Positions 18,779 to 34,919 of a stretch of DNA of 37,767 nucleotides are shown one piece after another. Position 1 is the stretch's first letter. The number at the start of each line of letters is the position of its first letter. This DNA comes from Azohydromonas caseinilytica (GTDB lineage Bacteria; Pseudomonadota; Gammaproteobacteria; Burkholderiales; Burkholderiaceae_C): assembly GCF_012927045.1 (NCBI RefSeq), contig NZ_JABBFW010000041.1, positions 1 through 37,767 of the forward strand, given 5' to 3'. The notes beneath the pieces were generated by a model, which worked only from the letters and a program-made list of their open reading frames with translations, searched no databases and had not been told where the DNA came from. The position numbers and the translations under genes were made by a program.

Positions 18779-20010
18779 TGAGCGAGGGACCGCGCCTGCT
18801 GCCCATCGACGCCACGCGCCTCATCGACACGCTGCTGGAGCTGCTGGCCATTCCCAGCCCGGCCGGGCTGACCGACGGGATCGTGCACTACACCGGCGCG
18901 CGGCTCGACGCCATCGGCATCCCCTACGAGCTCACGCGCCGCGGCACCCTCCGCGCGCTGCTGCGGCGCAACCTGCCCGAGCGCCGGCGCCAGAACCCGT
19001 CCTGCGCCATCGTGGCGCACCTGGACACGCTGGGCGCGATGGTGCGCGAGGTCAAGGCCAACGGCCGGCTCTCCATTGCGCCCATCGGCACCTGGTCCAG
19101 CCGCTGGGCCGAGGGCGGGCGCGTCACCGTCTTCACCGAGAACGCACGCTACCGCGGCTCGGTGCTGCCGCTGATGGCTTCGGGCCATGTCTACAACGAA
19201 GCCATCGACAGCCAGCCCGTCAGCTGGGACCAGCTGGAGCTGCGCGTGGACGAGCGCATCGCCTCGGCCGCCGACGTGGCGAAGCTGGGCATCCAGGTCG
19301 GCGACTTCGTGGCCTTCGACGCGCAGCCGGAGGTGCTGGACAACGGCTACATCGTCTCGCGCTACCTCGACGACAAGGCCGGCGTGGCCGCGCTGCTGTG
19401 CGCGCTGGAGGCGGTGGTGAAGTCCGGCGTGCCGGTGCCCATGGACTGCCATGCCGTGTTCACCCTCACGGAGGAAGTGGGCTCCGGCGCGCGCGCCGTG
19501 ATCGAGGAGGACGTGAGCGAGGTCATCGGCGTGGACATCGGCCCCATCGCCGCCGGCCAGGGCGCGGGCGACGAGGGCGTGACCATCCCGCTGATGGACT
19601 CCGCCGGCCCGCACGACTACCACCTCACGCGGCGGCTGCTGGCGCTGTGCGCGCAGCACGGCATTCCCAGCCACCGCGACGTGTTCCGCTTCTACCACTC
19701 CGACGCCGGCGCGGCCGTGAGTGCGGGCGCGGACGTGCGCACCGCGCTGCTGTGCTTCGGCACCGACGCCACGCATGGGTACGAACGCACCCACTTGTCT
19801 TCGCTGGTGCACCTGGCGCAGCTGCTGGCGCTCTACATCCAGAGCGGTCCGACGCTGCGAGAGGACCGGCAGCGCCGGCTGGAGTCGGTGCAGGACTTCT
19901 CGCACCAGCTCGACGCCGATCAGCTCGCGCGCACCGACACCGTGTTGCCCGACCCGGGCGAGCTGGTCACGCGCACCGATCCAGAAACGCCGCCGCCGGA
20001 CAGGGCCTGA
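18778..20010 (+). CDS. NAGGN-system M42-family metallopeptidase
   Basis: 410-residue di-zinc aminopeptidase-fold protein of family M42 (FrvX/DAP2-like). Metal-ligand motifs are visible: AHLDTLG, YLDDKAGVAALL, the catalytic pair TEEVGSG, GVDIGP, and the final histidine in ATHGYERTH. This is the third gene of the conserved NAGGN operon and translationally coupled to ngg. It is presumed to degrade NAGGN or its precursor when osmolarity falls, but that is inferred from context. The C-terminal tail beyond residue about 380 is hydrophilic. It ends 46 bp from the convergent LysR gene. Confidence 0.9.
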   Translation: MSEGPRLLPIDATRLIDTLLELLAIPSPAGLTDGIVHYTGARLDAIGIPYELTRRGTLRALLRRNLPERRRQNPSCAIVAHLDTLGAMVREVKANGRLSIAPIGTWSSRWAEGGRVTVFTENARYRGSVLPLMASGHVYNEAIDSQPVSWDQLELRVDERIASAADVAKLGIQVGDFVAFDAQPEVLDNGYIVSRYLDDKAGVAALLCALEAVVKSGVPVPMDCHAVFTLTEEVGSGARAVIEEDVSEVIGVDIGPIAAGQGAGDEGVTIPLMDSAGPHDYHLTRRLLALCAQHGIPSHRDVFRFYHSDAGAAVSAGADVRTALLCFGTDATHGYERTHLSSLVHLAQLLALYIQSGPTLREDRQRRLESVQDFSHQLDADQLARTDTVLPDPGELVTRTDPETPPPDRA

Positions 20011-20056
20011 ATCGCCACGGCGGCCCGCCGCTCCGCTCGTTCGTTTGCGCCTTGGC

Positions 20057-21016
20057 TCATTCGCCGCCTCGCTCGTTTGCCCGCAACTTGCCCGGCGTGG
20101 CAAGGTGAGCCGCCTCGCGGCCATGAAATGCCGCGCCGGCGCCGCTGCGAAAGGCGCGCACTGTCTCCAGCATGGCGGTCAGCAGTGGCGAGTCGTTGTC
20201 TTGCAGGTAAAAGCAATGCAGGTCCATGAACGCTTCCACGCGGGAGTGCAGGGGCCGGTAGGTGATGCCGGGGAAGCGAACGTTCGTCATCGAACCCGGT
20301 ACGAGCGTGATGCCCAGCCCCGCCGCGGCCAGCAGCGTGGCCGTGACAACATCGCTGGCCGGCGGCGCAAGTCGCGGCTCGAAGCCGTGATCCCGGCACA
20401 GCTGCAGCGTCATGGCCGCGATGGAAGGTGAGCTGCCGATGAGCATCGTTTCATCACGCAGCGCCGCCACGTCGATGCGGTCGTGGGCTGCCAGCGGATG
20501 CCCCTCGGCCATGCCCAGCAGCAGCGGTTCACGCGCCACCAGCTCCACCTCGATGTCCACCTCGTCGGGCAGCATTCGCTCGAACACCAGCGACACGCGC
20601 CCCTGGCGCAACGCCGGCAGCTGCTGGGGGGTCTGCGCGTGGTGCAGCACCAGATCGACCTCGGGATGCGCGGCGTGGAAGGCTTCAAGCACTTGCGGCA
20701 CCAGGCCGAAGATGGCGGAGCCGTAGACGCCGATGTCGAGCCGCCCGGCCTGCCCGCGCCCTGCGCGCTGTGCGCGCTCGGCTGCCTGCGCCACGAGGCT
20801 GCGAATGTTCTGGGCGTCGCGCAACAGCTCTTCTCCGGCCTGCGTCAGCTCCATGCCGCGTGACGTGCGCTTGAACAGCTGCACGCCCAGCTCGGCTTCG
20901 AGCTGCTGGATCTGGCGCGTGAGAGGAGGCTGTGACAGGTGCAGCTTCTCGGCGGCGCGCCCGAGATGCCGCGTCTCCGCCACGGCCACGAAGTAGTTCA
21001 GTTGCCTCAAATCCAT
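20057..21016 (-). CDS. LysR-type regulator, probable controller of the GH3/uronate locus
   Basis: 319 residues. N-terminal winged HTH (residues 1-60, MDLRQLNYFVAVAETRHLGR, LHLSQPPLTRQIQQLE, GVQLFKRTSRGMELTQAG), then a LysR effector-binding domain. The start at 21016 is set by the canonical MDLRQLNYF and AAGAGG 6 bases upstream; the longer open frame is spurious. It is divergent from the first GH3 gene. A 42-bp element shared with the second GH3 upstream region lies 10 bp in front of this gene, which points to autoregulation and to control of both glycosidases. The inducer is unknown; a uronate or aldarate is plausible. Confidence 0.92.
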   Translation of the reverse strand: MDLRQLNYFVAVAETRHLGRAAEKLHLSQPPLTRQIQQLEAELGVQLFKRTSRGMELTQAGEELLRDAQNIRSLVAQAAERAQRAGRGQAGRLDIGVYGSAIFGLVPQVLEAFHAAHPEVDLVLHHAQTPQQLPALRQGRVSLVFERMLPDEVDIEVELVAREPLLLGMAEGHPLAAHDRIDVAALRDETMLIGSSPSIAAMTLQLCRDHGFEPRLAPPASDVVTATLLAAAGLGITLVPGSMTNVRFPGITYRPLHSRVEAFMDLHCFYLQDNDSPLLTAMLETVRAFRSGAGAAFHGREAAHLATPGKLRANERGGE

Positions 21017-21025
21017 TGCCAGCCT

Positions 21026-21067
21026 CTTACGGAAAAGGTATCGGGTTGAACAAATTTTGCATTGGAC
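21026..21067. promoter_or_regulatory. Shared 42-bp element, copy A (LysR/GH3-1 divergent region)
   Basis: The plus strand holds TTACGGAAAA, then GTATCG, ACAAA, TTTG and ATTGGAC in fixed spacing; 33 of 42 positions equal copy B at 27680-27721. It contains a LysR-type T-N11-A box with dyad ends (TAC-N7-GTA, 21028-21040) and a CAAA-N-TTTG dyad. It lies 10 bp from the lysR start and about 200 bp before the GH3 ATG. Confidence 0.75.
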
Positions 21068-21269
21068 GTGTTGTAAGCGGGTGCTGAAACTCACGCTCAG
21101 TCCCACGTGAAGAGACAGGGGACCAGGACATGAGCGTCCATGCCGGACCTCGCCGCCCAGGGCCGCTGCAAAGGCTCTTTCCGCGAATGGCGGAGTCGCG
21201 AAACCGGATGCCGGCAACGTTCATGGAACCAATGCGAAGGCCCGTCTGAGGCCGCATCGAGGAGACAAC

Positions 21270-23504
21270 ATGGAATCCAAAGACGCACGCCGTCTGCGTC
21301 CCATTGCCACGGCCTGCGTGCTGAGCGTGGCCGGGCTGGCTTTGAGCGGCTGCTTTGGCGGCGACGACGGCGAGGCTCCGCGCCTGGAGCAGCCCACTAT
21401 CGGTGTGCGCGGCAAGACCGTTCTGAACCAGGACGGCTACCAGTTCCGCGACGCCAACGGCAACGGCCGGCTCGACCCGTACGAGGATTGGCGGCTGTCC
21501 ATTGAGGCCCGCGTGGCCGACCTGCTGCCGCGCATGACGCTGCAGCAGAAGGCCGGGATGATGCTCATCGACACGCTCAATGCCGGGTGCGCGGGCGACG
21601 TGGCCAGCACCAAGGCGGCTGCCTTCGTGCAGACCGAGAAGATGACGCGCTTCATCCTGCGCAGCACGGCCAAGGCCACGGCGGATGCCTGCGACGGCAG
21701 CGTCACGCCCGGGCGCGGAGGCTATGTCGTCACCCCGCGGCAGCTTGCGGAGTTCCACAACGCCGTGCAGGCCCTGGCCGAAGCCGAGCCGCTGGGCATC
21801 CCGGTGCAGTTCAAGGACAACCAGCGCAACCACTACAACAACGATCCGCGCTTCGGCATCTCCGGCAGCGCCGGTGCCTTCACCGAGTTTCCGCGCGAGG
21901 CCGGCATCGCCGCAGCCGCGCTGGGCACGGGCGACATGTCGCCCGTGCAGAAGCTCACCGAGGTGATGGGCGAGGAATATCGCGCGGTGGGCCTGCGCGG
22001 TCTCTATGGCTACATGGCCGATCTGGCCACCGAGCCGCGCTGGTACCGCGTGTCGGAAACCTTCACCGAGGACGCCGACCTCAACGCCAACATCATGACC
22101 GCGCTGGTGCAGGGGCTGCAGGGCGGGCCGGTGAGCCCTAACTCGGCCGTGGCGCTGACCATGAAGCATTTCCCCGGCGGTGGCCCGCAGGAGCAGGGGC
22201 TCGACCCGCATTACTCCTTCGGAAAGCACCAGGTGTACCCGGGCGGCAACTTCGCCTACCACCTCAAGCCTTTCCAGGCCGCCGTCAGCGCCGGGGTCTC
22301 GGCCATCATGCCCTACTACGGCGTGCCCATCAGCGTGAGCTACGAGGGCGTCACCTACGACCAGACCGGTTTCGCGTTCAACAAGCAGATTGTGACGGAC
22401 CTGCTGCGCGGCAAGCTGGGCTTCCAGGGCTACGTCAACTCCGACACCGGCATCATCAACGACCGCGCCTGGGGCCTGGAAGGCAAGACCGTGCCGGAGC
22501 GCGCGGCCACCGCCATCAACGCCGGCGTGGACGTGCTCTCGGGCTTCAACAGCAACAAGACCATCACCGACCTGGTTGCCGCCGGGCTGGTGAGCGAGGC
22601 GCGCGTCACCGAGGCGGCGCGGCGGCTGCTGACCGAGCAGTTCAGGCTCGGCCTGTTCGAGAACCCCTACGTGGATGCGACGAAGGTGGACGCCGTGCTT
22701 GGCAGCGACGCCCACCGCGCCAAGGGCCTGGAAGTGCAGAAGCAATCCATCGTGCTGCTGCAGAACAGCGACCCGGGCACGGGTGCGAAGCTGCTGCCGC
22801 TGGCCGCGGGCAAGCGCCTCTACACCATGGGCATGGGCAAAGCCGACGTGCAGAAGTACGGCTATGTCGTCACGGATGGCAACTACACGGTGCCTGGTGG
22901 CCGGCCCAGCGCCGCGGGGCATGACGCGGCCGTGATCCGCGTGCAGGTCACCAATCCCGCTGCCGTCACGGCCGCCTACCGCACCAAGGGCGCGACCACC
23001 GGGGCCGAACCGGCCAACCTCAACCCGCGCACCGGCAGCGTCTGGGGCGCCGAGGACTCCTGCATCCTCTTTCCGGCGCAGAACCCGAGCTGCGTGGATG
23101 ACGTGGGCCTGATCTTCGGCGGCGCCTTCCCCTGGGAAGCCAACAACCTCTCGTTCAGCACCATGGCGGCTTCGCAATCGTGGCAGATGACGCCCTCGCT
23201 GGCCGACATCCAGGCGGTGATGAATGAGGTGGGCGCGAAGAACACGGTGCTGGCCATCTACTTCCGCCAGCCTTACGTGCTCGATGACGCCAGCGGGCTG
23301 AAGAACGCCGGCGCGATCGTGGGCACCTTCGGCGTCAGCGACGTGGCGCTGCTTGAAGTGCTCAGCGGCAAGTTCAAGCCGCAGGGCAAGCTGCCCTTCG
23401 CGCTGGCCAACAAGCTGGAGGCGGTGGTCAACAACCAGCCCGACGTGCCCGGATATCCGGCTGCCGACACGCTGTATCCGTACGGCTTCGGCCTGAGCTA
23501 CTGA
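21270..23504 (+). CDS. GH3 glycosidase lipoprotein without Fn3 domain
   Basis: 744-residue glycoside hydrolase family 3 protein, probably a beta-glycosidase. The signal peptide ends in the lipobox LSGC with Cys28 as lipid site; the +2 residue is not Asp, so outer-membrane sorting is likely. The mature start has a spacer, then RDANGNGRLDPYEDWRLS and MTLQQKAGMML. KHFPGGGPQEQGLD and YVNSDTG mark the active site, with Asp392 the candidate nucleophile. The C-terminal alpha/beta sandwich ends at YPYGFGLSY immediately before the stop, so the fibronectin-like third domain common in bacterial GH3 enzymes is missing. GAGGAGACAAC precedes the ATG. udh follows after 93 bp. Linkage and sugar are not determined. 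Confidence 0.88.
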   Translation: MESKDARRLRPIATACVLSVAGLALSGCFGGDDGEAPRLEQPTIGVRGKTVLNQDGYQFRDANGNGRLDPYEDWRLSIEARVADLLPRMTLQQKAGMMLIDTLNAGCAGDVASTKAAAFVQTEKMTRFILRSTAKATADACDGSVTPGRGGYVVTPRQLAEFHNAVQALAEAEPLGIPVQFKDNQRNHYNNDPRFGISGSAGAFTEFPREAGIAAAALGTGDMSPVQKLTEVMGEEYRAVGLRGLYGYMADLATEPRWYRVSETFTEDADLNANIMTALVQGLQGGPVSPNSAVALTMKHFPGGGPQEQGLDPHYSFGKHQVYPGGNFAYHLKPFQAAVSAGVSAIMPYYGVPISVSYEGVTYDQTGFAFNKQIVTDLLRGKLGFQGYVNSDTGIINDRAWGLEGKTVPERAATAINAGVDVLSGFNSNKTITDLVAAGLVSEARVTEAARRLLTEQFRLGLFENPYVDATKVDAVLGSDAHRAKGLEVQKQSIVLLQNSDPGTGAKLLPLAAGKRLYTMGMGKADVQKYGYVVTDGNYTVPGGRPSAAGHDAAVIRVQVTNPAAVTAAYRTKGATTGAEPANLNPRTGSVWGAEDSCILFPAQNPSCVDDVGLIFGGAFPWEANNLSFSTMAASQSWQMTPSLADIQAVMNEVGAKNTVLAIYFRQPYVLDDASGLKNAGAIVGTFGVSDVALLEVLSGKFKPQGKLPFALANKLEAVVNNQPDVPGYPAADTLYPYGFGLSY

Positions 23505-23526
23505 CCGCCAGGGCGTCCGCCCGGAA

Positions 23527-23553
23527 CCCGGCCGCCGTTTCAGGAAGGCCGGG
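23527..23553 (+). terminator. Hairpin between GH3-1 and udh
   Basis: CCCGGCC and GGCCGGG form a 7-bp stem with a 13-base loop 22 bp after the GH3 stop. No T-run follows. It may partly terminate or stabilise the upstream message. Confidence 0.35.
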
Positions 23554-23597
23554 CGGGCTGCGCTCATCCTCGAATTCCATGCCCGCCAGACCTCACC

Positions 23598-24428
23598 ATG
23601 CTGCCTGATCCCATGACTCCCATCCGCTTCGGCCGCCTGCTGCTCACCGGCGCGGCCGGCAACCTGGGCCGCGAACTGCGCCCACGCCTGCGGCGCTACT
23701 GCGACACGCTTCGCCTGAGCCACCGCCGCGACTTCGGCCCTGCCGAGCCGGGCGAGGAGATCGTGCTGGCGCACCTGGAAAACAAGGCTGCCATGCTGGC
23801 GCTGCTTGAAGGCGTGGACGCCGTGGTGCACATGGGCGGCGTTTCCACCGAGCAGCCCTGGCAGCCGATCCTGGAGTCCAACATCGTCGGTGCCTACAAC
23901 CTCTACGAGGCGGCGCGCCACCACCGCGTGTGGCGCATCGTGTTCGCCAGCTCCAACCACGTCACGGGCTTCTATCGGCAGGACCAGGTCATCAGCCCGC
24001 GCGACCCGGCACGCCCGGACGGTCTCTATGGCCTGTCCAAGGCCTTCGGCGAGGATCTGGCACAGCTCTACTTCGACCGCTTCGGCATCGAGACCGTGAG
24101 CCTGCGCATTGGCTCCAGCTACGCCGAGCCCAAGGACCGGCGCATGCTGGCCACCTGGCTGAGCTTCGACGACCTGGAACGCCTGGTGGTGGCCGCGCTC
24201 ACCGCGCCGGTGGTGGGCCACAGCGTCATCTACGGCATCTCCGACAACGCCACCACCTGGTGGGACAACACGCCGGCGCGCCACGTCGGCTATCGCCCCC
24301 AGGACAGCTCCGACACCTTCCGCGCCGCCGTGGAGGCTCGCCAGCCGCGCATCGACCTGGACGACCCCGCCGCGCGCTACCAGGGCGGCGCCTTCGTGCG
24401 CACCGGCCCGTTCGAGGACCAGGCCTGA
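23598..24428 (+). CDS. udh: Uronate dehydrogenase
   Basis: 276-residue short-chain/extended Rossmann oxidoreductase. It has the NAD motif [19 protein letters not shown], catalytic Tyr144 and Lys148 in [16 protein letters not shown], and [12 protein letters not shown]. The order and sequence match Agrobacterium and Pseudomonas uronate dehydrogenases, which oxidise D-galacturonate or D-glucuronate to the aldaro-lactone with NAD+. The ATG at 23598 is followed by another at 23613; neither has a strong ribosome binding site. The downstream TRAP transporter supports uronate as substrate. Lactone isomerase/lactonase and aldarate dehydratase genes are not in this window. Confidence 0.9.
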
Positions 24429-24474
24429 GCAGCCGGCTCATTTCGCCACACGCCAACTTCAACCGACACCAACC

Positions 24475-25440
24475 ATGATCAAGCAGATTGCCCTGGCTGC
24501 GATGGCCACGCTGACCGTCCTTGGCGCGCAAGCCAAGGAATTCCGCTCCGCCGACGTGCACAACAGCGACGACTACCCCACCGTCGCGGCCGTGAAGTAC
24601 ATGAGCCAGGTGCTCGAACAGAAGAGCGGCGGCAAGTACAAGATCAAGGTCTTCAACAAGAGCGCCCTGGGCACCGAGAAGGAGACGCTGGACCAGGTCA
24701 AGATCGGCGCGCTGGACATGAACCGCGTCAACATCAGCTCGCTGAACTCGATGTGCCCGAAGTCGCTGGTGCCCACGCTGCCCTTCTTGTTCAACAGCAT
24801 CGAGCACATGCACCAGGTGCTCGACGGCCCGGTGGGCGAGGAGATCCTCAAGGGCTGCGAGCATGAGGGCCTGGTGGGCCTGGCCTTCTACGACAGCGGC
24901 GCGCGCAGCATCTACGCCAAGAAGCCCGTGCGCACGCTGGCCGACGCCAAGGGCATGAAGATCCGCGTGCAACCGTCTGACGTATGGGTGGCGGTGGCCG
25001 CCGCCATGGGCGCCAACGCCACGCCCATGCCCTACGGCGAGGTCTACACCGCGCTCAAGACCGGCATCATCGACGCCGCCGAGAACAACATCCCCTCATT
25101 CGAGACCTCCAAGCATTTCGAGGCCGCGAAGGTGTTCTCGCACACCGAGCATTCGATGGCGCCCGAAGTGCTGCTCATCAGCAAGGCCGTGTTCGACAAG
25201 CTGCCCAAGGCCGAGCAGGACATGGTCCGCGCCGCGGCCAAGGAGTCGGTGGCGTTCCAGCGCAAGAAGTGGGCCGAGCAGGAGGCCAAGTCGCTGACCA
25301 CCATCAAGGCTGCCGGCGTGCAGATCGTTGACAACGTCGACAAGGCCTCCTTCCAGTCCGCAATGCAGCCGGTGTACGCCAAGTTCGTGACCACGCCGGA
25401 TCTGCAGCGCCTGGTCAAGGCGGCGCAGGACCTCAAGTAA
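24475..25440 (+). CDS. dctP: TRAP transporter substrate-binding protein (DctP), probable uronate
   Basis: 321-residue periplasmic solute receptor with signal peptide (cleavage after LGAQA, mature [10 protein letters not shown]). Typical DctP features are [12 protein letters not shown], with the carboxylate-binding Arg, and [23 protein letters not shown]. Position between udh and the TRAP permeases suggests binding of glucuronate or galacturonate, as known for several Burkholderiales DctP proteins. It delivers ligand to DctQM using a sodium gradient. The gene starts 46 bp after udh. A stem-loop in the 119-bp gap to dctQ could raise binding protein over permease. Confidence 0.92.
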
Positions 25441-25489
25441 GCCGCCGCGGCGGCGCCCGGCGCGCCGCCGTGCCTGCATGAAATGAGCA

Positions 25490-25513
25490 CCATGCCTTTG
25501 CAAGAAGGCATGG
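25490..25513 (+). promoter_or_regulatory. Intercistronic hairpin between dctP and dctQ
   Basis: CCATGCCTT and AAGGCATGG form a perfect 9-bp stem with a 6-base loop. It lies 49 bp past the dctP stop and 46 bp before the dctQ start. Such hairpins in binding-protein/permease operons often stabilise the upstream message or attenuate read-through. Confidence 0.5.
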
Positions 25514-25559
25514 AAGCCCTTGTTGCGCGCGCTGCTGCGCGTGCCGTCCCGGAGTCTCC

Positions 25560-26156
25560 ATGAGTTCCCCTGCCGCCCTGCCGGCCACCGTCGCGGACAA
25601 CGAAAACGTCAACGCCGCCACCGGTACGCCGCTGGAGGCCGACCACACCCGGCCGCCCTCCACCCACCTCTACTCGCGCTTTTGCGCCTTTCTCTCCAAG
25701 GCCAGCCTGGTGCTGGCCGTGATCGGGCTCATCGCCCTGATCCTGTGCGTGCAGTTCCAGGTCGTCGGCCGCTACATCTTCAACGACACGCCCACCTGGG
25801 CCGAGGCCCTGGCGCTGCAGCTCGTGCTCTACATCACCGCACTGGGCGTGGCGGTGGGCGTGCGCGACGCGGGCCACATCGGGCTGGAGTCGCTGGTGTC
25901 GCTGCTGCCTGAAGCCTGGCGGCTGCGCCTGGAGATCCTCATCCACGGCTTCGTCGTGCTCTTCGGCGCCATCATGGCCAAGAGCGGCTGGCTGTGGACC
26001 ACGCTCAAGTGGAGCGACATCAAGCCCATGCTGGGCGTGCCCGTGGGCGCGGACTACCTGGCCCTCGTGGTGGCCGGCGTGCTGATCGTTCTCTTTTCTA
26101 TCGAACACATCATCGCGCTCGTGCGTGATGAGGAAGTGGTGCCGGCATGGAACTGA
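25560..26156 (+). CDS. dctQ: TRAP transporter small permease (DctQ)
   Basis: 198 residues, with a long hydrophilic N-terminal tail of about 45 residues followed by four membrane helices (roughly 50-72, 85-105, 130-150 and 170-190). The family pattern QVVGRYIFNDTPTWAEALALQL is evident. The stop overlaps the dctM start by 10 bases, indicating coupled translation. It forms the inner-membrane complex with DctM. Confidence 0.92.
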   Translation: MSSPAALPATVADNENVNAATGTPLEADHTRPPSTHLYSRFCAFLSKASLVLAVIGLIALILCVQFQVVGRYIFNDTPTWAEALALQLVLYITALGVAVGVRDAGHIGLESLVSLLPEAWRLRLEILIHGFVVLFGAIMAKSGWLWTTLKWSDIKPMLGVPVGADYLALVVAGVLIVLFSIEHIIALVRDEEVVPAWN

Positions 26157-27436
26157 CCGTCCTGACCCTGAGCTTCGCCGCCCTGCTGGTGCTGGGCGTG
26201 CCCGTGGCGTTTTCCATCGGCCTGGCCTCCATCGCCACGGTGCTGTACTCGGGCATGCCCGTGGAGATCGTCTTCCAGAAGATGGTGGGCGGCATGCAGG
26301 TGTTCTCCTTCCTGGCCATCCCGTTCTTCGTTTTCGCCGGCGAGCTCATGCTCTACGGCGGCATCGCCGACCGCATCGTGCGCTTCGCCAACAGCCTTGT
26401 CGGCCACGTGAGGGGCGGCCTGGGGATGAGCAACGTCGTGGGCTGCACGCTCTTTGGCGGCGTGGCGGGCTCGGCGCTGGCCGACGTCTCGGCCATGGGC
26501 TCGGTGATGATCCCGCTGATGAAGAAGGAGGGCTACGACGCCGACTACGCCGTCAACGTCACGACGCACTCGGCGCTGGTGGGCGTGCTCATGCCCACCT
26601 CGCACAACCTCATCATCTTCACGCTGGCCACCACCGGCATCGCCTCGGTGAGCATCCTCAGCCTGATCCTGGCGGGCATCATCCCGGCCATCCTGCTGAC
26701 CGCGTGCAACCTGGGCGCCGCCTACTACGTGGCGCGCAAGCGCGGCTATCCCATCCGCGGCGGCTTCCCCGGCTGGGGCGAGGTGCTCAAGAGCTTCCTG
26801 GGCGCGCTGCCGGGGCTGCTGATCGTGGTCATCATCCTCGCGGGCATCCTCTCGGGCATCTTCACCGCCACCGAGAGCGCGGCCACGGCCGTGTTCTGGG
26901 CCGTGCTGGTGACGGCCCTGGTCTACAAGACGCTGTCCTGGAAGGACTTCCTCAAGGCCTGCGCCAAGGCCTGCAAGGCCACCGGCGTGGTGCTGCTGCT
27001 CATCGGCATCTCCAGCGCCTTCGGCTACTTCATGGCCCTGTACGAGGTGCCGCAGAAGACCGGCGAGCTCATGCAGTCGGTGACGGACAACCCGCTGGTG
27101 ATCTTCTTCATGATCAACCTGCTGCTGTTCGTGCTGGGCACCTTCCTGGACATGGCCGCCACCATCCTGGTGTGCACGCCCATCTTCCTGCCCATCGCCA
27201 TGCAGTTCGGCATGGACCCGGTGCAGTTCGGCATCGTCATGCTCATCAACTGCGCGCTGGGCCTGAACACGCCGCCCGTGGGCGTGACGCAGTTCGTGGG
27301 CTGCGCCATCGGCAACATCTCGGTGGGCCAGGTGATGAAGTCGATCCTGCCCTTCTACAGCGCGCTGGGCATCTGCCTGGCCCTGGTCACCTACGTGCCC
27401 GCCTTCTCGATGTGGCTGCCCGGCATGTTCAGATGA
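26147..27436 (+). CDS. dctM: TRAP transporter large permease (DctM)
   Basis: 429 residues, about twelve membrane segments, the catalytic sodium-coupled translocation subunit. Family marks include LGVPVAFSIGLASI, FAGELMLYGGIADRIV, GGVAGSALADVSAMGSVMIP, MPTSHNLIIF and NTPPVGVTQFV. It starts inside the end of dctQ and is the last gene before a strong terminator at 27495-27524. Confidence 0.95.
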   Translation: MELTVLTLSFAALLVLGVPVAFSIGLASIATVLYSGMPVEIVFQKMVGGMQVFSFLAIPFFVFAGELMLYGGIADRIVRFANSLVGHVRGGLGMSNVVGCTLFGGVAGSALADVSAMGSVMIPLMKKEGYDADYAVNVTTHSALVGVLMPTSHNLIIFTLATTGIASVSILSLILAGIIPAILLTACNLGAAYYVARKRGYPIRGGFPGWGEVLKSFLGALPGLLIVVIILAGILSGIFTATESAATAVFWAVLVTALVYKTLSWKDFLKACAKACKATGVVLLLIGISSAFGYFMALYEVPQKTGELMQSVTDNPLVIFFMINLLLFVLGTFLDMAATILVCTPIFLPIAMQFGMDPVQFGIVMLINCALGLNTPPVGVTQFVGCAIGNISVGQVMKSILPFYSALGICLALVTYVPAFSMWLPGMFR

Positions 27437-27494
27437 CCACCGCCGCCCGGAATTGACGCGCGCTGTGCGCGAAATCAGATTCTTTTCAAATCAG

Positions 27495-27524
27495 GAAAAT
27501 GCGCCGCTGCCGCGGCGCATTTTC
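27495..27524 (+). terminator. Terminator of the TRAP operon
   Basis: GAAAATGCGCCGC pairs perfectly over 13 bp with GCGGCGCATTTTC around TGCC, giving an A-flanked GC stem ending in a T-rich side. It lies about 58 bp after the dctM stop and may work in both directions. Confidence 0.85.
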
Positions 27525-27679
27525 ATTTGGCGCCCTGCGGCATGCTGGTGCGTTCAATGGGAACCCGCGGTTTTTCAAAGTTCACAGGGTGGTGCGCCAT
27601 CGCGGTGCAGTCATCGAATGTTTTTGACGCCTTGGAAATCAGGGCGGTGTGCAAGTTGGGTTGGGGGTAGTCCCAATTG

Positions 27680-27721
27680 CTTACGGAAAAAGTATCGAAC
27701 CTCACAAACTTTGTATTGGAC
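27680..27721. promoter_or_regulatory. Shared 42-bp element, copy B (upstream of GH3-2)
   Basis: Same element and orientation as at 21026-21067: TTACGGAAAA, GTATCG, ACAAA, TTTG and ATTGGAC in identical spacing. The TAC-N7-GTA box is at 27682-27694. Differences are confined to a six-base central block and three single positions. It ends about 220 bp before the GH3-2 ATG, close to the 203 bp seen for GH3-1. Confidence 0.75.
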
Positions 27722-27940
27722 TTGAGTGTTGCTGCTCTGGTGAACTGTCGAGGTGCCAGCGGTTTAATGAGATTTGCAGCTGAATACCGGGAAATTCGAA
27801 TTATTTTCGATTTCAGCCTGTGATTTCCTCGGCATGACCCGGTGCAATCTTCGGATACATGCCTGGTTTTATTCAGTTTCGCCGTGACAGCTCCTGGCCG
27901 CGTCAACAAAGCCTGTTCCATCAATTCAAAGGAGACAACG

Positions 27941-30550
27941 ATGCAACCCCGGTTTTTCGCCAGGAAGACCCCGCTCGCCATGGCGGTCAGCGCGGTTCTT
28001 TCGATGGGCCTGGTGGCCTGCGGTGGCTCGGACGAGGCTGAGCCGGCTGCGGTAGCGGCCTCGGCGCCCGCTTCAGGCGTCCAGCCATGGATGGCCATGG
28101 CCACCATCAATGAGCAGAAGACGGCAGCGACCGACACGGCCAAGGAGGCGGTGGCCAACCGGCGTGCCAAGCTGCTGCTCGCGGCAATGACGCTGGAGCA
28201 GAAGCTGCAGCAGCTCACGGGCAGCATGCCGGAACTGATCCCTGAACTGCCGGGGTGCTACGGGGCTCGCCACGTGACGGGCATCGCCGCCCTGAGCATC
28301 CCGACCCTGCGCATCACCAATGGTCCGGTCGGCGTGGGCCAGAACGACTGCGTGGCGGCGAGCCTGTACGACGAGGTCAAGGCGGGCACGAAGAGCTTCA
28401 CCGTCGCGTACACGCATCCCAGCTCCGCCAAGGCGACGGCGCTGCCGTCCGCGATCTCGGCTGCCGCGTCCTTCGATCCGGCCGTGGCTGCCGCGTACGG
28501 CGACGTGATCGGCACGGAGATGAACAACCTGGCGCTGCACGTCTTCGAGGCGCCGGGCCTGAACCTGGCGCGAATTCCGGTGCTGGGCCGCAACTTCGAG
28601 TACTTCGGCGAGGACCCGTACCTCACGGGCGTGATGGGCGTGGCCGAAACCAAGGCCGTGCAGGCCAAGGGCCTGATCGCGATGCCCAAGCACTTCGTCG
28701 CCAACGAGCAGGAAACCAACCGCCAGAAGGTGCAGGAAACGGTGGACCGCCAGGTGCTGCGCGAGCTGTACCTGCTGCCCTTCGAGATGGCGGTGAAGGA
28801 CGGCAAGCCGGGCTCCATCATGTGCGCCTACAACTATGTCAACGGCGCGCAGTCCTGCGAAAGCAAGGAGATGCTCACCGACGTGCTGCGCACCGACTGG
28901 GGCTTCACGGGCTACGTGCAGTCGGACTTCTTCGCCATGAAGAGCACCGTGGGCACGATGCAGGCGGGCATGGACCATGAGATGCCGATCCCGCAACAGT
29001 GGGCGCCGGCCAAGCTCACCCCAGCCTTGGCTTCCGGCTCCATCACGACGGCCATGATCGACAAGGCCCTGGAGCGCCGCTACACGCAGATGTTCAAGAT
29101 GGGCATCTTCGACCGCCCGCTGGTGCAGACGGCCATCGACTTCGCCAACAACGGCAAGGTGGCGCGCGACATCGGCACGAAGGCGGCTGTGCTGCTGCAG
29201 AACAACGGTGCGCTGCCCATCGCCTCCACGGTGCGCAAGGTGGTTCTGGTCGGCAAGGCGTCCCAGGTCTACGCCCAGCAGGCCGTAGCCGGCGGTTCGC
29301 TGGTGGGCAAGCCGATGGGCGCGGGCGGTGGCAGCTCGGACGTCGTGCCCAACTACACGGTGGCGCCCATCGACGGCATCAGGAACACGCTCAAGGCGCT
29401 GGGCAACACCACGGCCGCCGTCCAGCTCATCCTGGTTGATGATGCCAACGCGAGCGCCACGATCGACGGCCGCTCGGTGTCCTTCGACGAGGCGCTGGCG
29501 GCCGCGGCAGCGGCCGACGCCGTGGTGGTGATGGCGGGCACCGTTTCGGAAGAGGGCGCGGACCGCGCCACCATGGCCGACGGCAGCACGGCGGCCTCCA
29601 CCACCGTGCCGCTCGCCGCCGGCGCCAGGCCCTCCGACGGCAGCAGCCTGGACTGGTACGCGACGTCGAGCTCCAGCGCGTATGCGACGCTCACCGGTGC
29701 CAATGCCGTCAAGAACAGCCAGACGGTGGCCATGATCAAGGCGATCATGACCACGGCCTCGACCACGGGGCGCACGATGGTCCAGAAGACGGCGCTGGTG
29801 CTCAAGGACAACGCCGGTATCGCGATGGACCCGGACTTGGTCGGCACGGCCGGCCCCTCCATCCTGGAAGCCTGGTTCCCGGGCCAGGAGGACGGCAACA
29901 TCGTGGCCGACCTGCTGTTCGGCGTGAAGAACCCTTCGGGCAAGCTGCCGGTGACCTTCCCGGTCGCCGGCAAGGGTTTCCTCGACCACGCGAGCCTGGA
30001 GCAGTTCCCCGGCGTGGTGAGCGCCGACGGCAGCACGCAGACGGTCAACTACAGCGAAGGCCTGCACATCGGCTACCGCTGGTACGACGCCAACAAGAGC
30101 GGCGAGTGCACGGTGGTGAACGGCAGCAACCCCTGCGTGGCTTTCCCCTTCGGCCATGGCCTGGCCTACACCACGTTCACCGTCACCGCGCCGAGCGTGG
30201 CGCTGAACAACTCGACAAAGGCCTATGACGTGAAGGTCAAGGTCAGCAACACCGGCAAGGTGACGGGCTCGGAGGTCGTCCAGGTGTACCTGTCACTGCC
30301 CACCGGCGCCAGCGCGTTGGGCATGGAGCAGCCGCCGAAGCGCCTGGTCGGGTTCCAGAAGGTCGAGCTGGCGCCGGGCGCTTCCCGGGACGTCGTCATC
30401 TCGATCAACCCGGCGGCAAGCAACCACCCGCTCAGCGCATGGAGCAAGACGTCCAACCAGTGGGTCACCCCGGCGGGCGCCTACACGGTCTATGCCGGCA
30501 AGTCCTCGGCACCCAGGGACCTGGCTGTGGCGGGAACCTTCACTCGCTGA
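27941..30550 (+). CDS. GH3 beta-glycosidase lipoprotein with Fn3-like C-terminus
   Basis: 869-residue family 3 glycoside hydrolase. The signal peptide ends in LVAC, with Cys27 as lipid site and Gly at +2, suggesting outer-membrane anchoring. The catalytic (beta/alpha)8 part has FEYFGEDPYLTG, KHFVANEQETNR and GYVQSDFFAM with candidate nucleophile Asp329. The second domain has FPGQEDGNIVADLLFG and PSGKLPVTFP, the FPFGHGLAYTTF motif near 740, then a fibronectin-like domain (VKVKVSNTGKVTGSEVVQVY) to the end. The start at 27941 follows AAAGGAGACAACG; the frame is open to 27842. It is separate from the TRAP operon but shares the putative LysR element. Likely a periplasm-facing beta-glucosidase or xylosidase-type enzyme; specificity unknown. 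Confidence 0.9.
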   Translation: MQPRFFARKTPLAMAVSAVLSMGLVACGGSDEAEPAAVAASAPASGVQPWMAMATINEQKTAATDTAKEAVANRRAKLLLAAMTLEQKLQQLTGSMPELIPELPGCYGARHVTGIAALSIPTLRITNGPVGVGQNDCVAASLYDEVKAGTKSFTVAYTHPSSAKATALPSAISAAASFDPAVAAAYGDVIGTEMNNLALHVFEAPGLNLARIPVLGRNFEYFGEDPYLTGVMGVAETKAVQAKGLIAMPKHFVANEQETNRQKVQETVDRQVLRELYLLPFEMAVKDGKPGSIMCAYNYVNGAQSCESKEMLTDVLRTDWGFTGYVQSDFFAMKSTVGTMQAGMDHEMPIPQQWAPAKLTPALASGSITTAMIDKALERRYTQMFKMGIFDRPLVQTAIDFANNGKVARDIGTKAAVLLQNNGALPIASTVRKVVLVGKASQVYAQQAVAGGSLVGKPMGAGGGSSDVVPNYTVAPIDGIRNTLKALGNTTAAVQLILVDDANASATIDGRSVSFDEALAAAAAADAVVVMAGTVSEEGADRATMADGSTAASTTVPLAAGARPSDGSSLDWYATSSSSAYATLTGANAVKNSQTVAMIKAIMTTASTTGRTMVQKTALVLKDNAGIAMDPDLVGTAGPSILEAWFPGQEDGNIVADLLFGVKNPSGKLPVTFPVAGKGFLDHASLEQFPGVVSADGSTQTVNYSEGLHIGYRWYDANKSGECTVVNGSNPCVAFPFGHGLAYTTFTVTAPSVALNNSTKAYDVKVKVSNTGKVTGSEVVQVYLSLPTGASALGMEQPPKRLVGFQKVELAPGASRDVVISINPAASNHPLSAWSKTSNQWVTPAGAYTVYAGKSSAPRDLAVAGTFTR

Positions 30551-30606
30551 TGAAGACGCGCCAGTGCCCTGGCGTCCTGGCCTGCGGTGCTGAGCGCTGC
30601 TGAAGC

Positions 30607-30647
30607 AACGCCCGTCATGCCGCGCAAGCGGGCATGACGGGCGTTTT
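30607..30647 (+). terminator. Terminator of GH3-2
   Basis: ACGCCCGTCATGCC (30608-30621) and GGCATGACGGGCGT (30631-30644) form a 14-bp stem with a 9-base loop, followed by TTTC. It serves GH3-2 and, read the other way, the convergent hemerythrin-like gene. The stem resembles the REP-like hairpins at 2518-2612. Confidence 0.8.
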
Positions 30648-30688
30648 CACGCATCTGGTTGAGATCAAAGGGGTCGGGCCGCTGTCCG

Positions 30689-31204
30689 CTACGCCGACTG
30701 CTGCTCCTGCACGCCCATCTGCTGCATCAGCTCCTGGCGGCGCGTCATCATCTGCCGGCCCAGGGCGCTGAGATCCAGCCCGCCCTTTTGCTGCAGTTGC
30801 GGGATGAGCTCGTTCTCTTCTTCCTGCACATGGTGCTTGGTGTACTCGCCGAGCACCTTGACCTTGGCGTCGTACAGCTCTTCCGACGGGTCCATGCCCT
30901 GGATCTGCTTGATCAGGTCGCGCGCGCTGGCGTGTTCGACCTTGGCCTCTTCGATGAGGTCGTTCCGGCCCAGCGCCTGGCGGGCCGCCGGGTAGAGAAG
31001 TTCTTCCTCCAGCTGCGCATGCATCAGCAGCAGCTTGCAGATCCGCTGCGCCGTCTGCTCCTTCTGCTGGTCGCCGGCCTGCGGTGGAGTCTCGGGCTTT
31101 TCCCGGGGCGCCGCGGTTGCGCCTGGGCACGCGGATTGCGGCGTCCCGGGACAGGTGCTGCGTATCCCCGCCAAGGGCCGGCAGAGCGATGCGGCAGTGG
31201 TCAT
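30689..31204 (-). CDS. Short hemerythrin-like (HHE) protein, first helix absent
   Basis: 171 residues from the ATG at 31204; the frame is open much further upstream. The C-terminal two thirds fit a hemerythrin-type four-helix protein: ICKLLLMHAQLEEELLYPAAR, EEAKVEHASARDLI, EYTKHHVQEEENELIPQL. Family members normally begin with a helix containing a DHxxVK-like iron-ligand histidine. Here that segment is replaced by a low-complexity Pro/Ala/Cys-rich stretch, and I find no match to it in any frame upstream. The ribosome binding site is weak and the 5' end overlaps a putative operator. It could be a truncated, decaying gene or a divergent form that does not bind a normal diiron site. Confidence 0.6.
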   Translation of the reverse strand: MTTAASLCRPLAGIRSTCPGTPQSACPGATAAPREKPETPPQAGDQQKEQTAQRICKLLLMHAQLEEELLYPAARQALGRNDLIEEAKVEHASARDLIKQIQGMDPSEELYDAKVKVLGEYTKHHVQEEENELIPQLQQKGGLDLSALGRQMMTRRQELMQQMGVQEQQSA

Positions 31205-31220
31205 AAGCAAAACACATAGC
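31202..31220 (+). promoter_or_regulatory. CATAAG-N7-CATAGC motif upstream of the van operon
   Basis: CATAAG (31202-31207), seven bases, CATAGC (31215-31220). The same twelve bases with the same spacing occur at 37100-37118 in front of the tandem-HTH LysR gene. The core is a T-N11-A LysR-type box. It lies about 200 bp before the MFS start and overlaps the 5' end of the hemerythrin-like gene. Confidence 0.5.
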
Positions 31221-31417
31221 AGCGCCCCTACACGGCATTGGCTGCTGCCAAGGGGAACTGTGATGCTTCGGCCCGCAGAAACAAGGCAGCGACGGCGCAC
31301 CGCCCGGTGGGTCGTCCAGACCATCAAACCAGGCTGCGGTTCCTGCGCAGTGACGGCATCCGAGTGGCGTCGCCCGCCAAGGACGGAGTGAGACAACCTG
31401 TTCCGTAGAGGACTTGT

Positions 31418-32758
31418 ATGACAGACATCCGAAGGACGCTCGAAGAGGGCGTCATGACCCGGTTCCAGTGGGTCGCCGTGGCGATCTGCGTGATGCTCAT
31501 CATGCTCGATGGCTTCGACGTGCTGGTGATGGCCTTCACCGCCTCCAGCGTGGCCGCCGAGTGGAAGCTCAACGGCGCGCAACTGGGGCTGCTGTTCAGC
31601 GCCGGCCTGTTCGGCATGGCCGCGGGCTCGCTGTTCGTGGCGCCGGTGGCCGACCGCATCGGCCGCCAGCCCGTCATCCTGCTGTGCCTGATCGTCATTG
31701 CCGCGGGCATGCTGCTGTCGGGCCTGGCGCAGAGCCACATGCAGCTCGTCGGGCTGCGTGGGCTCACCGGCGTGGGCATCGGCGGCATGCTCGCCAGCGT
31801 GGGCATCATCACGGCCGAGTATTCCTCGCTGAAGTGGCGCAGCACCGCCGTGGCGCTGCAGGCCACGGGCTATCCCATCGGCGCGACGCTGGGCGGCCTA
31901 GTGGCCGCGTGGCTGCTGCAGCACTACGGCTGGCGCTCGGTGTTCGTCTTCGGCGGGCTGGCCACGGCAGTAATGATTCCGATCGTGCTGTGGCGGTTGC
32001 CCGAGTCGGTGGACTTCCTCATCGCGCGCCGTCCGGCGCATGCGCTGGACAAGCTCAACCGCATCCTGGGCTTCATGGGCCATTCGCGCCTGCAGCAGTT
32101 GCCCGAGCGGGCCGCGGCCGGCGTGGCGGCGGCCCAGGGCAATGCCGTGGCCGGCCTGTTCAAGAACGGCCTGGCGCGCCCCACGCTGATGCTGTGGAGC
32201 GCCTTCTTCCTGCTGATGTTCAGCGTCTATTTCTCGCTGAGCTGGACGCCGAAGCTGCTGGTGCAGGCCGGCCTGTCGGCGCAGCAGGGCGTCACGGGCG
32301 GCGTGCTGATCAACCTGGGCGGCATCGTCGGCGGCAGCCTGTTCGGCGCACTGGCCGTCCGCGTGCGGCTGGTGCATCTCACGGTAGGGGCCTTCCTGAT
32401 CTACGCGGTGTTCACCGCGCTGTTCGGTGCCGTCTCCGGTGCCCTGGGCCTGGCCTTCGCGGCGGCCTTCGGCATGGGCGTTTTCCTGTTCGCCTCGATG
32501 GCCGGCCTCTATGCCTTCGCGCCGGTGACCTACCCGGCGGCAGTGCGCACCACCGGCCTGGGCTGGGCCATCGGCATCGGCCGTATCGGCGCCATCCTGG
32601 CCCCGCTGATCGCCGGCATGCTGCTCGACGGCGGCTGGCAGCCCGCATCCCTTTACTACGCCTACGCGCTGCCGCTGGTGGCCGGGGCCCTGGCGGTGCT
32701 GGCCATCGGCACCGGCCGTACCGCGCCGGGCCAGTCGCGGCCCGCGGCTGCGCACTGA
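31418..32758 (+). CDS. MFS aromatic acid:H+ symporter (AAHS family), probable vanillate importer
   Basis: 446-residue major facilitator with twelve membrane segments. The AAHS signature MLDGFDVLVMAF in helix 1 carries the Asp pair typical of PcaK, BenK and VanK, and the loop 2-3 motif ADRIGRQPVIL is present. Other marks are GIGGMLASVGIITAEYSSLKW and LPESVDFLIARR. AGAGGA lies before the ATG. It precedes vanA by 55 bp on the same strand, so vanillate or a related methoxylated benzoate is the likely substrate. It acts in the inner membrane as a proton symporter. Confidence 0.9.
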   Translation: MTDIRRTLEEGVMTRFQWVAVAICVMLIMLDGFDVLVMAFTASSVAAEWKLNGAQLGLLFSAGLFGMAAGSLFVAPVADRIGRQPVILLCLIVIAAGMLLSGLAQSHMQLVGLRGLTGVGIGGMLASVGIITAEYSSLKWRSTAVALQATGYPIGATLGGLVAAWLLQHYGWRSVFVFGGLATAVMIPIVLWRLPESVDFLIARRPAHALDKLNRILGFMGHSRLQQLPERAAAGVAAAQGNAVAGLFKNGLARPTLMLWSAFFLLMFSVYFSLSWTPKLLVQAGLSAQQGVTGGVLINLGGIVGGSLFGALAVRVRLVHLTVGAFLIYAVFTALFGAVSGALGLAFAAAFGMGVFLFASMAGLYAFAPVTYPAAVRTTGLGWAIGIGRIGAILAPLIAGMLLDGGWQPASLYYAYALPLVAGALAVLAIGTGRTAPGQSRPAAAH

Positions 32759-32813
32759 CACGACGTCGGCCCCAAAGGGGCACGCCCGCATCACTTCTTC
32801 AAGGAGCCATCCC

Positions 32814-33893
32814 ATGTTTCTGAAGAACACCTGGTACGTCGCCTGCAAGCCCGACGAGATCGAGGGCAAGCCGCTGGGCCGCAAGGTCTGCAACGAGGCC
32901 ATCGTCTTCTACCGCCAGGCCGACGGCAGCCCGGCCGCGGTGGAGGACTTCTGCCCGCACCGCGGCGCGCCGCTGTCGCTGGGCTACGTGTCCGACGGCA
33001 AGCTCGTGTGCGGCTACCACGGCCTGGAGATGGGCTGCGACGGCAAGGCCGTCGCCATGCCGGGCCAGCGTGTGCGCGGCTTCCCGTGCATCAAGAGCTA
33101 CGCCACGGTGGAGCGCCACGGCTTCATCTGGGTGTGGCCCGGCGACAAGGACCAGGCCGACCCCGCGCTCATCCCGGAGCTGCACTGGGCCCACGATCCC
33201 GAGTGGGCCTACGGCGGCGGCTACTACCACGTCAGGTGCGACTACCGGCTCATGATCGACAACCTGATGGACCTCACGCACGAGACCTACGTGCACTCCA
33301 CGTCCATCGGCCAGAAGGAGATCGACGAGACGCCGTGCACCACGAAGGTCGAGGGCGACCACGTCATCACCAGCCGCTTCATGAACGAGCTGCCCGAGGC
33401 GCCGCCGTTCTGGAAGCTGGCGCTGCGCGGCCACGGGCTGCCCGATGACCAGCGCGTGGACCGCTGGCAGATCTGCCACTTCAACCCGCCCACGCACGTG
33501 ATGATCGAGGTGGGCGTGGCGCTGGCCGGCCACGGCGGCTACGACGCGCCGGCGGACAAGAAGGTCTACGCCATCGTGGTGGACTTCATCACGCCCGAGA
33601 CCGAGACCTCGCACCACTACTTCTGGGGCATGGCGCGGCACTTCAAGCCGCAGGACCCGGCGCTGACCGTGGCCATCCGCGAGGGCCAGCGCAAGGTCTT
33701 CGGCGAGGACCTGCAGATGCTGGAGCGCCAGCAGGCCAACCTCAGCACCTGGCCCGAGAGGAAGCTGCTGATGCTCAACATCGACGCCGGCGGCGTGCAG
33801 TCGCGCCGCGTCATCGACCGCGTCCTGGCGCAGGAGACGGCCGCGAAGGCCAATGCCTCCAGTGCCACCGGCGTGGCGGAGGCGGCGCAATGA
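32814..33893 (+). CDS. vanA: Vanillate O-demethylase oxygenase subunit
   Basis: 359-residue Rieske non-heme iron oxygenase. The Rieske ligands are in CPHRGAPLS and CGYHG, and the mononuclear iron motif NLMDLTHETYVH follows. FLKNTWYVAC at the start and the overall length match VanA. With VanB it converts vanillate plus O2 and NAD(P)H to protocatechuate plus formaldehyde. An AAGGAG site precedes the ATG and the stop overlaps vanB (ATGA). Protocatechuate ring-cleavage genes are not in the window. Confidence 0.95.
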   Translation: MFLKNTWYVACKPDEIEGKPLGRKVCNEAIVFYRQADGSPAAVEDFCPHRGAPLSLGYVSDGKLVCGYHGLEMGCDGKAVAMPGQRVRGFPCIKSYATVERHGFIWVWPGDKDQADPALIPELHWAHDPEWAYGGGYYHVRCDYRLMIDNLMDLTHETYVHSTSIGQKEIDETPCTTKVEGDHVITSRFMNELPEAPPFWKLALRGHGLPDDQRVDRWQICHFNPPTHVMIEVGVALAGHGGYDAPADKKVYAIVVDFITPETETSHHYFWGMARHFKPQDPALTVAIREGQRKVFGEDLQMLERQQANLSTWPERKLLMLNIDAGGVQSRRVIDRVLAQETAAKANASSATGVAEAAQ

Positions 33894-34864: not shown

Positions 34865-34919
34865 CGCGGCCTCGCGCCGCAGGTGTGTTCATGCCGCGAT
34901 GGCTTGGGAGAAACAGAGG

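Follow-up and report, generated by a model that had tools for sequence, protein, structure and literature searches.

The promoters controlled by BenM and CatM, two LysR-type transcriptional regulators (LTTRs) of Acinetobacter, carry the T-N11-A box ATAC-N7-GTAT as Site 1 and have Site 2 over the -35 hexamer (promoter description in PMC6628147). A uronate dehydrogenase (Udh) operon of Halomonas is governed by GguR, a GntR-family regulator (regulon account in PMC5507952). A beta-glucuronidase in an unexpected family, displayed among the glycoside hydrolase family 3 (GH3) beta-glucuronidases, is credited to Neun et al., 2022 in the relevant part of a review (PMC10176489). Here we analysed a 37,767-bp stretch of Azohydromonas caseinilytica DNA (contig NZ_JABBFW010000041.1, positions 1 to 37,767; hereafter the window), in which two GH3 genes are each preceded by a copy of a 42-bp element (A and B). 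Comparison with related genomes indicates that A and B are very probably operator-promoters of the LysR activator encoded at 20057-21016, a member of the BenM/CatM/CbnR branch, and would drive a beta-glucuronide/uronate regulon. The features concerned are as follows.

20057-21016, - strand: lysR, 319 aa, proposed regulator of A and B
21026-21067, + strand: element A, putative operator plus -35 of the GH3a-udh-TRAP unit
21270-23504, + strand: GH3a, GH3 enzyme homologous to SN243 (beta-glucuronidase type), with a lipoprotein-like signal by eye
23598-24428, + strand: udh, uronate dehydrogenase, matching solved uronate dehydrogenases
24475-25440, + strand: dctP, solute-binding protein of a tripartite ATP-independent periplasmic (TRAP) transporter, nearest structures 4mhf and 4mij
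25560-26156, + strand: dctQ, TRAP small permease (domain and NCBIfam searches)
26147-27436, + strand: dctM, TRAP large permease (domain and NCBIfam searches)
27680-27721, + strand: element B, putative operator plus -35 of GH3b
27941-30550, + strand: GH3b, 869 aa, beta-glucosidase-like GH3 with an Fn3-like domain

Like the BenM/CatM and CbnR promoters, this locus combines a LysR of the branch, an upstream T-N11-A box and a candidate second site over the -35. Unlike BenM/CatM, the genes under A and B are glycosidases, a uronate dehydrogenase and a TRAP transporter instead of aromatic-ring genes, and the box starts with TTAC in most close orthologues. The GguR regulon, as described in that part of PMC5507952, similarly has a single regulator for Udh and a hexuronate transporter, whereas the regulator here is LysR-type rather than GntR-type and glycosidases are included. 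The mechanism is of a known kind, while the regulon is apparently new: no publication on it was found in the open-licence literature, most subscription journals being outside that scope, and within the same scope no paper names both LysR and uronate dehydrogenase. We favour, with reservation, the broader view that a BenM/CbnR-branch LysR has turned into a dedicated beta-glucuronide switch in Burkholderiales and beyond, in which the SN243-type GH3 would gain a role and a regulator, the glucuronidase would be exchangeable (GH3 or GH2), and udh, a TRAP transporter or a porin would be added. Such a regulon would link recently recognised GH3 beta-glucuronidases to the uptake and oxidation of uronic acids, provide a specific candidate regulator and site, and might be used for glucuronide-inducible expression or sensing. 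It also illustrates how, starting from two operator copies in a single window, a LysR regulon can be traced across genera.

Elements A and B and the adjacent lysR gene

In an alignment of the two intergenic regions, A and B are identical at 33 of 42 positions and both lie on the + strand, exactly reproducing the coordinates, orientation and identity given in an earlier note on this DNA. This pairing is the top-scoring ungapped 42-bp match between the two regions, and 500 dinucleotide-preserving shuffles of these regions gave best 42-bp matches with a mean of 23.0 (sd 1.0, maximum 27). The 6.65-Mb A. caseinilytica genome (G000) contains the strict core TTACGGAAAANGTATCG at two places, both inside the window, and its backward control at none. 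The TAC-N7-GTA box, which is its own reverse complement and had already been read in both elements, occurs in the whole window only at A and B. Chance similarity of A and B was rejected on the basis of the shuffles, the genome-wide core count and the window count of TAC-N7-GTA.

The alignment also confirmed that the DNA flanking A and B is dissimilar on both sides. Local duplication was rejected as the origin of the two copies because the flanks are unlike and the element is conserved across genera, which bears out the earlier view of a conserved site rather than a recent duplication. The element includes a -35 with a -10 behind it, and each copy precedes a GH3 gene, as would be expected of a strong promoter motif or a duplication leftover without any regulator. 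However, a conserved upstream box lies outside the core promoter, only two sites were found in 6.65 Mb, and the element is conserved across genera and before non-GH3 genes; conservation largely refutes this explanation, and we give it almost no credence. A and B lie 203 and 220 bp from the starts of their GH3 genes, in agreement with the earlier note, but the near-equality of these distances carries no meaning: in six relatives the distance is 71, 87, 100, 106, 121 and 182 bp, so equal spacing was rejected as a feature and looks like coincidence.

The LysR protein contains PF00126 (HTH_1, E = 4.8e-26) and PF03466 (LysR_substrate, E = 1.7e-34), the domains of an LTTR. Its closest solved structures are 7w06 (LysR family regulator), 1ixc (a LysR-type regulatory protein, which we take to be CbnR), BenM and CatM. 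It scores under every NCBIfam cut-off among the matches listed (25 of 54), including AlsR (220 of 430 bits), BenM (148 of 600) and CatM (134 of 580). Sequence comparison thus places it in the branch of BenM, CatM and AlsR, yet not as an orthologue of these proteins. In the tree, it clusters with 13 relatives, with support of 100/99 for the inner 12 rows and 92/87 for all 14 rows. At E <= 1e-85, the protein was found in 8 of 399 genomes of the family, its own genome counted (five candidates scored per genome), and the class-wide search of 274 genomes returned its own genome only (about 8 candidates scored per genome). Among plasmids, 117 records gave partial matches, 0 of which spanned 80% of the query, and a single record passed E <= 1e-60; CP099606 was the plasmid record examined.

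A sequence-only site model (R1) was built from the sites of ten relatives, with A and B excluded. When 150 of the 359 first-look candidates in the 6.65-Mb genome were scored, R1 returned only A (E = 1.5e-11) and B (E = 6.8e-7) at E <= 1. In the family-wide scan, which scored fifteen candidates per genome under stricter filters, 21 of 399 genomes matched at E <= 0.01. All 8 LysR-bearing genomes (E <= 1e-85) were among these; six of them had supplied training sites, the others being G000 and G479.

Three R1 matches lie outside the training set (G, C and L numbers denote genomes, contigs and loci). The site G019:C64:94644 (E = 3.7e-5) is upstream of a porin-like gene, and that on G479:C2 (E = 3.0e-4) is upstream of udh. 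The third, on G001:C21, is a partial match (E = 2.1e-4, model positions 11-43) that precedes a GH3b orthologue 84-85% identical to that of the window, on another contig than either lysR of G001; upstream of this site are a second udh, an SMP-30-type gene, TRAP genes and a fragment of galactarate dehydratase. The site model predicts further regulon members, namely the porin, GH2 glucuronidases and the second GH3. In locus L117, the B-like site starts at position 5638. Between the TRAP genes and GH3b of this congener locus, a 197-aa frame (L117:5022-5615) matches galactarate dehydratase over its first third only (247 of 731 bits) and looks like a remnant.

The congeners G002 and G003 were searched with up to 150 candidates scored per genome in the targeted R1 scan and up to 37 in the LysR search. 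Neither contained LysR (E <= 1e-70), an R1 site, GH3a (E <= 1e-100) or GH3b (E <= 1e-120), while each kept one udh. LysR, the GH3 genes and the sites are therefore jointly absent from these two genomes.

Distribution of the element in relatives

A GH3a search of genome contigs yielded 264 loci, of which the best 79 were kept (L003-L081). A divergent, adjacent LysR orthologue (64-87% identical) was present in 5 of the 79. These five, and the further loci in which a LysR orthologue and the element face a gene other than GH3a, are as follows.

L003, Azohydromonas australica: GH3a
L004, Ideonella livida: GH3a
L022, Pseudomonas duriflava: GH3a
L026, Sphaerotilus hippei: GH3a
L031, Variovorax: GH3a
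L095: udh
L098: TRAP dctPQM
L099: TRAP, then a udh-like gene (38%) and an enolase-superfamily gene
L100 and L101: GH2 beta-glucuronidase

In each of the five GH3a loci, the element is found in front of GH3a, at a distance of about 10 bp from the start of lysR; these five sites helped to train R1. In contrast, none of the 74 GH3a loci without the LysR orthologue carried an R1 site at GH3a under default filters, including loci whose GH3a is 75-77% identical, although some of the 74 offer little upstream DNA (e.g. L023, L024 and L040). One of the loci, L058, gave a weak match (E = 0.13) away from GH3a. A scan with only the A/B core, requiring 23 of its 33 positions, recovered 3 of the 5 LysR-adjacent loci plus a site at another lysR in L016. 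The idea that the element is a property of GH3 was rejected, because the 0/74 result stands against positive udh, TRAP and GH2 loci that have the LysR.

The GH2 proteins of L100 and L101 score 891 and 866 bits against a beta-glucuronidase equivalog cut-off of 544. They are of the E. coli type (PRK10150), and this GH2 replaces GH3a opposite LysR and the element; unlike GH3a, it belongs to another glycosidase family and is followed by sugar ABC-like genes (by eye). Overall, the element is near the lysR start in 11 of the 14 LysR proteins of the tree orthologue group (the window counted), mostly at about 10 bp and at about 25 bp in L099. On this comparison, the element tracks the lysR gene more than the glycosidase. 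A lack of conservation in orthologous loci had been named earlier as the outcome that would speak against a conserved site, and the check in related genomes gave the opposite.

Some further features of these loci were noted. In L100 (6172-9289) and L101 (10622-14555), the genes after GH2 look by eye like sugar ABC binding protein and permease genes, such that regulator and operator are constant while glucuronidase and transporter differ; on the opposite side of lysR, L101 has in addition distant TRAP-like genes (30-32%). In P. duriflava, which lies outside Burkholderiales, LysR (64%), element and GH3a (60%) form a unit that was possibly acquired horizontally. SN243-like GH3 genes also stand beside TRAP genes (23-43%) without this LysR in L032, L033, L034, L037, L044, L047 and L051, whose hosts (Arthrobacter-type, Endozoicomonas and Vibrio) suggest a wider association under other regulators.

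Given that GntR-type GguR governs the Udh operon in Halomonas (as PMC5507952 describes that operon), a non-LysR uronate regulator of GntR, LacI or AraC type might act at the element. However, the neighbour common to GH3, udh, TRAP and GH2 targets is this lysR, at a distance of about 10 bp in most cases, and a T-N11-A box at about -64 together with an overlap of the -35 is LysR-type anatomy, which makes such a regulator very unlikely.

A closer competitor for the LysR encoded at 20057-21016 would be a different LysR of the same branch, acting at B and perhaps at A, with the likeness of the two elements reflecting a shared operator grammar. A similar layout does occur near the start of other lysR genes in the branch (29-42% identical), and the A. 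caseinilytica genome encodes five further LysR homologues (33-38%) at E <= 1e-25. The best of their promoters, L135, matches B at 25 of 42 positions, slightly above the 23 reached by random 360-bp window pieces (300 draws, A/B overlaps skipped), as expected if the branch shares its operator grammar. However, A and B agree at 33 positions, whereas the promoters of the five homologues reach 18 to 25 against B and 17 to 22 against A, and the R1 list at E <= 1, for which 150 of the 359 first-look candidates were scored, contains none of them. Moreover, a B-like site precedes GH3b in the other LysR-bearing congener, and L017 and L049, which have a GH3b relative and no LysR orthologue, give no R1 match; the LysR-less congeners G002 and G003 are uninformative on B, being without GH3b. 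A different LysR is thus improbable. What carries the assignment to the window LysR beyond layout is that B resembles A more than it resembles the promoter of any of the five paralogues examined.

Branch-wide similarities were also seen by other routes. L135, L136 and L137 (contigs C19, C78 and C11 of the same genome) have (C/A)TTGGAC in their divergent promoters, with a box-like GGTATCG in L135 and, by eye, TAGACT 18 bp further on in L136, possibly a branch-wide promoter grammar. Two Polaromonas lysR genes (33-34%) carry ATACAAATAATGTAT (L016:1263) or a near copy of it (L081, near 4360), each followed by ATTGGAC, and by eye both genes face an acyl-CoA dehydrogenase-like gene.

Several observations weigh against the assignment of A and B to this LysR. 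R1 gave three weak matches (E = 0.05-0.35) in the LysR-bearing genomes G428, G452 and G466, of which two fall at other lysR genes (35-36%) and one has no clear target. It also matched weakly (E = 1.8e-5 to 0.01) in 13 of the 391 genomes without a close LysR, 7 times beside other lysR-family genes and 6 times without a lysR within about 1.5 kb. The operator grammar is thus common to the whole branch, and cross-talk may occur. Of the three remaining members of the tree group, L097 lacks the element at its lysR start and has it instead at a nearby udh; L093 (a Comamonadaceae plasmid) and L086 (LysR 45% identical, opposite a GH3a) contain only degenerate forms. In L009, a GH3a (65%) lies beside two LysR homologues (51 and 44%) that fall just outside the tree group, with no R1 match. 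The 74 of 79 loci with SN243-like GH3 genes and without this LysR show that the enzyme is independent of it. The G001 draft has an estimated contamination of 8%, which slightly weakens its GH3b site. Finally, a sigma-70 scan with the E. coli consensus called 0 promoters in 19900-31500.

Promoter anatomy and proposed mechanism

The promoter features of the two elements and their surroundings are as follows.

21023-21028, - strand: AAGAGG, probable lysR Shine-Dalgarno, sharing two bases with the upstream box of A
21027-21041, + strand: upstream LysR box of A, TTACGGAAAAGGTAT (T-N11-A, TAC-N7-GTA), centred at about -64 relative to the predicted start
21051-21065, + strand: possible degenerate second site of A (CAAAT-N5-ATTGG), overlapping the -35, 4 of 7 pairs
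21062-21067, + strand: -35 hexamer TTGGAC of A
21086-21091, + strand: -10 hexamer GAAACT of A, 18-bp spacer
27495-27524, + strand: terminator-like hairpin after the TRAP genes, 13-bp predicted stem, 3' arm ending TTTT
27681-27695, + strand: upstream LysR box of B, TTACGGAAAAAGTAT, centred at about -65 relative to the predicted start
27716-27721, + strand: -35 hexamer TTGGAC of B
27741-27746, + strand: -10 hexamer TGAACT of B, 19-bp spacer (also 19 in orthologue L117)

Most sites were gathered with a pattern demanding ATTGGA and 16-24 bp between box and ATTGGA, so the co-presence of the two, and ATTGGA as the constant portion of the right half of the element, are partly by construction; the -10 lies outside that pattern. 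Over 15 sites, the distance from box to ATTGGA was 34 bp in 11 and 35 bp in 4. Scored with an approximate sigma-70 -10 matrix, the same sites gave a single sharp maximum 18 bp after TTGGAC (+1.98, against -2.65 or less at 19 other spacers). The best -10 within 15-20 bp had a spacer of 18 in 12 sites and 19 in three (B, orthologue L117 and L022). Counted from this conserved -10, transcription is predicted to start near 21098 (A) and 27753 (B), which puts a T-N11-A box in dyad near -65 in both elements, as in LTTR operators.

In the right half of the element, the conserved ATTGGA forms the -35 (TTGGAC), and a second LysR site overlapping it is plausible, though its dyad is weak. Both A and B contain the CAAA-N-TTTG dyad of the earlier note letter for letter, but it was rejected as a conserved feature, with 39 of 60 pairs over the 15 sites and all four pairs in only 3, A and B among them. 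A CCAAT-N5-ATTGG reading (59 of 105 pairs; of the 7 pairs per site, A forms 4 and B forms 3) is also a weak dyad and by pair count no better. The two-part LysR-type layout proposed in that note holds, now with a -35 and a -10, although layout alone is not regulator-specific and weaker versions occur at other lysR genes. Its prediction of a regulon from a shared LysR-type site and a neighbouring lysR is supported by the comparative tests across relatives.

We propose that a LysR tetramer would bind the upstream box (TTAC-N7-GTAT, about -64) and a weaker second box over the -35 (TTGGAC), and that effector-bound LysR would activate a weak promoter with its -10 another 18-19 bp downstream. LysR would drive GH3a-udh-dctPQM from A and GH3b from B. 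Because the upstream box of A overlaps the lysR Shine-Dalgarno by two bases, LysR likely also controls its own gene through this box. GH3a would free glucuronic acid from beta-glucuronides, the TRAP transporter would import the uronate and Udh would oxidise it; the effector may be glucuronate or an aldarate/lactone made from it.

The same overlap with the ribosome-binding site, together with a possible second site on the -35, could block RNA polymerase, and the regulator might then be chiefly a repressor rather than an activator. However, the -10 hexamers (GAAACT and TGAACT) are weak, and an upstream box at about -64 is the layout of LysR activators. We therefore consider activation the better reading and give repression a small but appreciable chance.

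The terminator scan listed no + strand terminator-like site between GH3a and the dctM end, in line with GH3a-udh-dctPQM forming one predicted transcription unit. The hairpin behind the TRAP genes (predicted fold of 27490-27530, -23.8 kcal/mol) suggests that a separate promoter is probably required for GH3b, a role that B would fill; terminator-like sites are not enriched in the region (6 vs. 6.2 in shuffles).

Gene content and predicted substrates

The best solved relative of GH3a is SN243 (E = 8e-225, 752 bits, residues 38-744), and this full-length alignment includes the catalytic-motif segments KHFPGGGPQE and VNSDTGI. The PDB name SN243 (7qe1 series) presumably denotes the GH3 beta-glucuronidase of Neun et al., 2022. 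By homology, GH3a is probably a beta-glucuronidase as well. The top structures for Udh are the uronate dehydrogenases 6mfh (mutated; E = 5.7e-87) and 3rft (E = 3.9e-80). For DctP, the nearest structure 4mhf is Bpro_3107, a glucuronate/galacturonate binder (protein entry in PMC7660916). GH3b is closest to beta-glucosidases among solved structures and falls under the NCBIfam cut-offs, the best being exo-alpha-L-arabinopyranosidase (343 of 1300 bits).

The substrates of the regulon are probably glucuronides and uronates, because GH3a is closest to SN243; GH2 beta-glucuronidases facing the same LysR elsewhere, Udh and the uronate-binder-like DctP point the same way. Further along the window (31418-35630), genes for an MFS transporter, a VanA/Rieske-type oxygenase, a ferredoxin-type reductase and a PcaD-like hydrolase form a run resembling a cluster for aromatic (methoxy-aromatic) breakdown beside the glucuronide genes.

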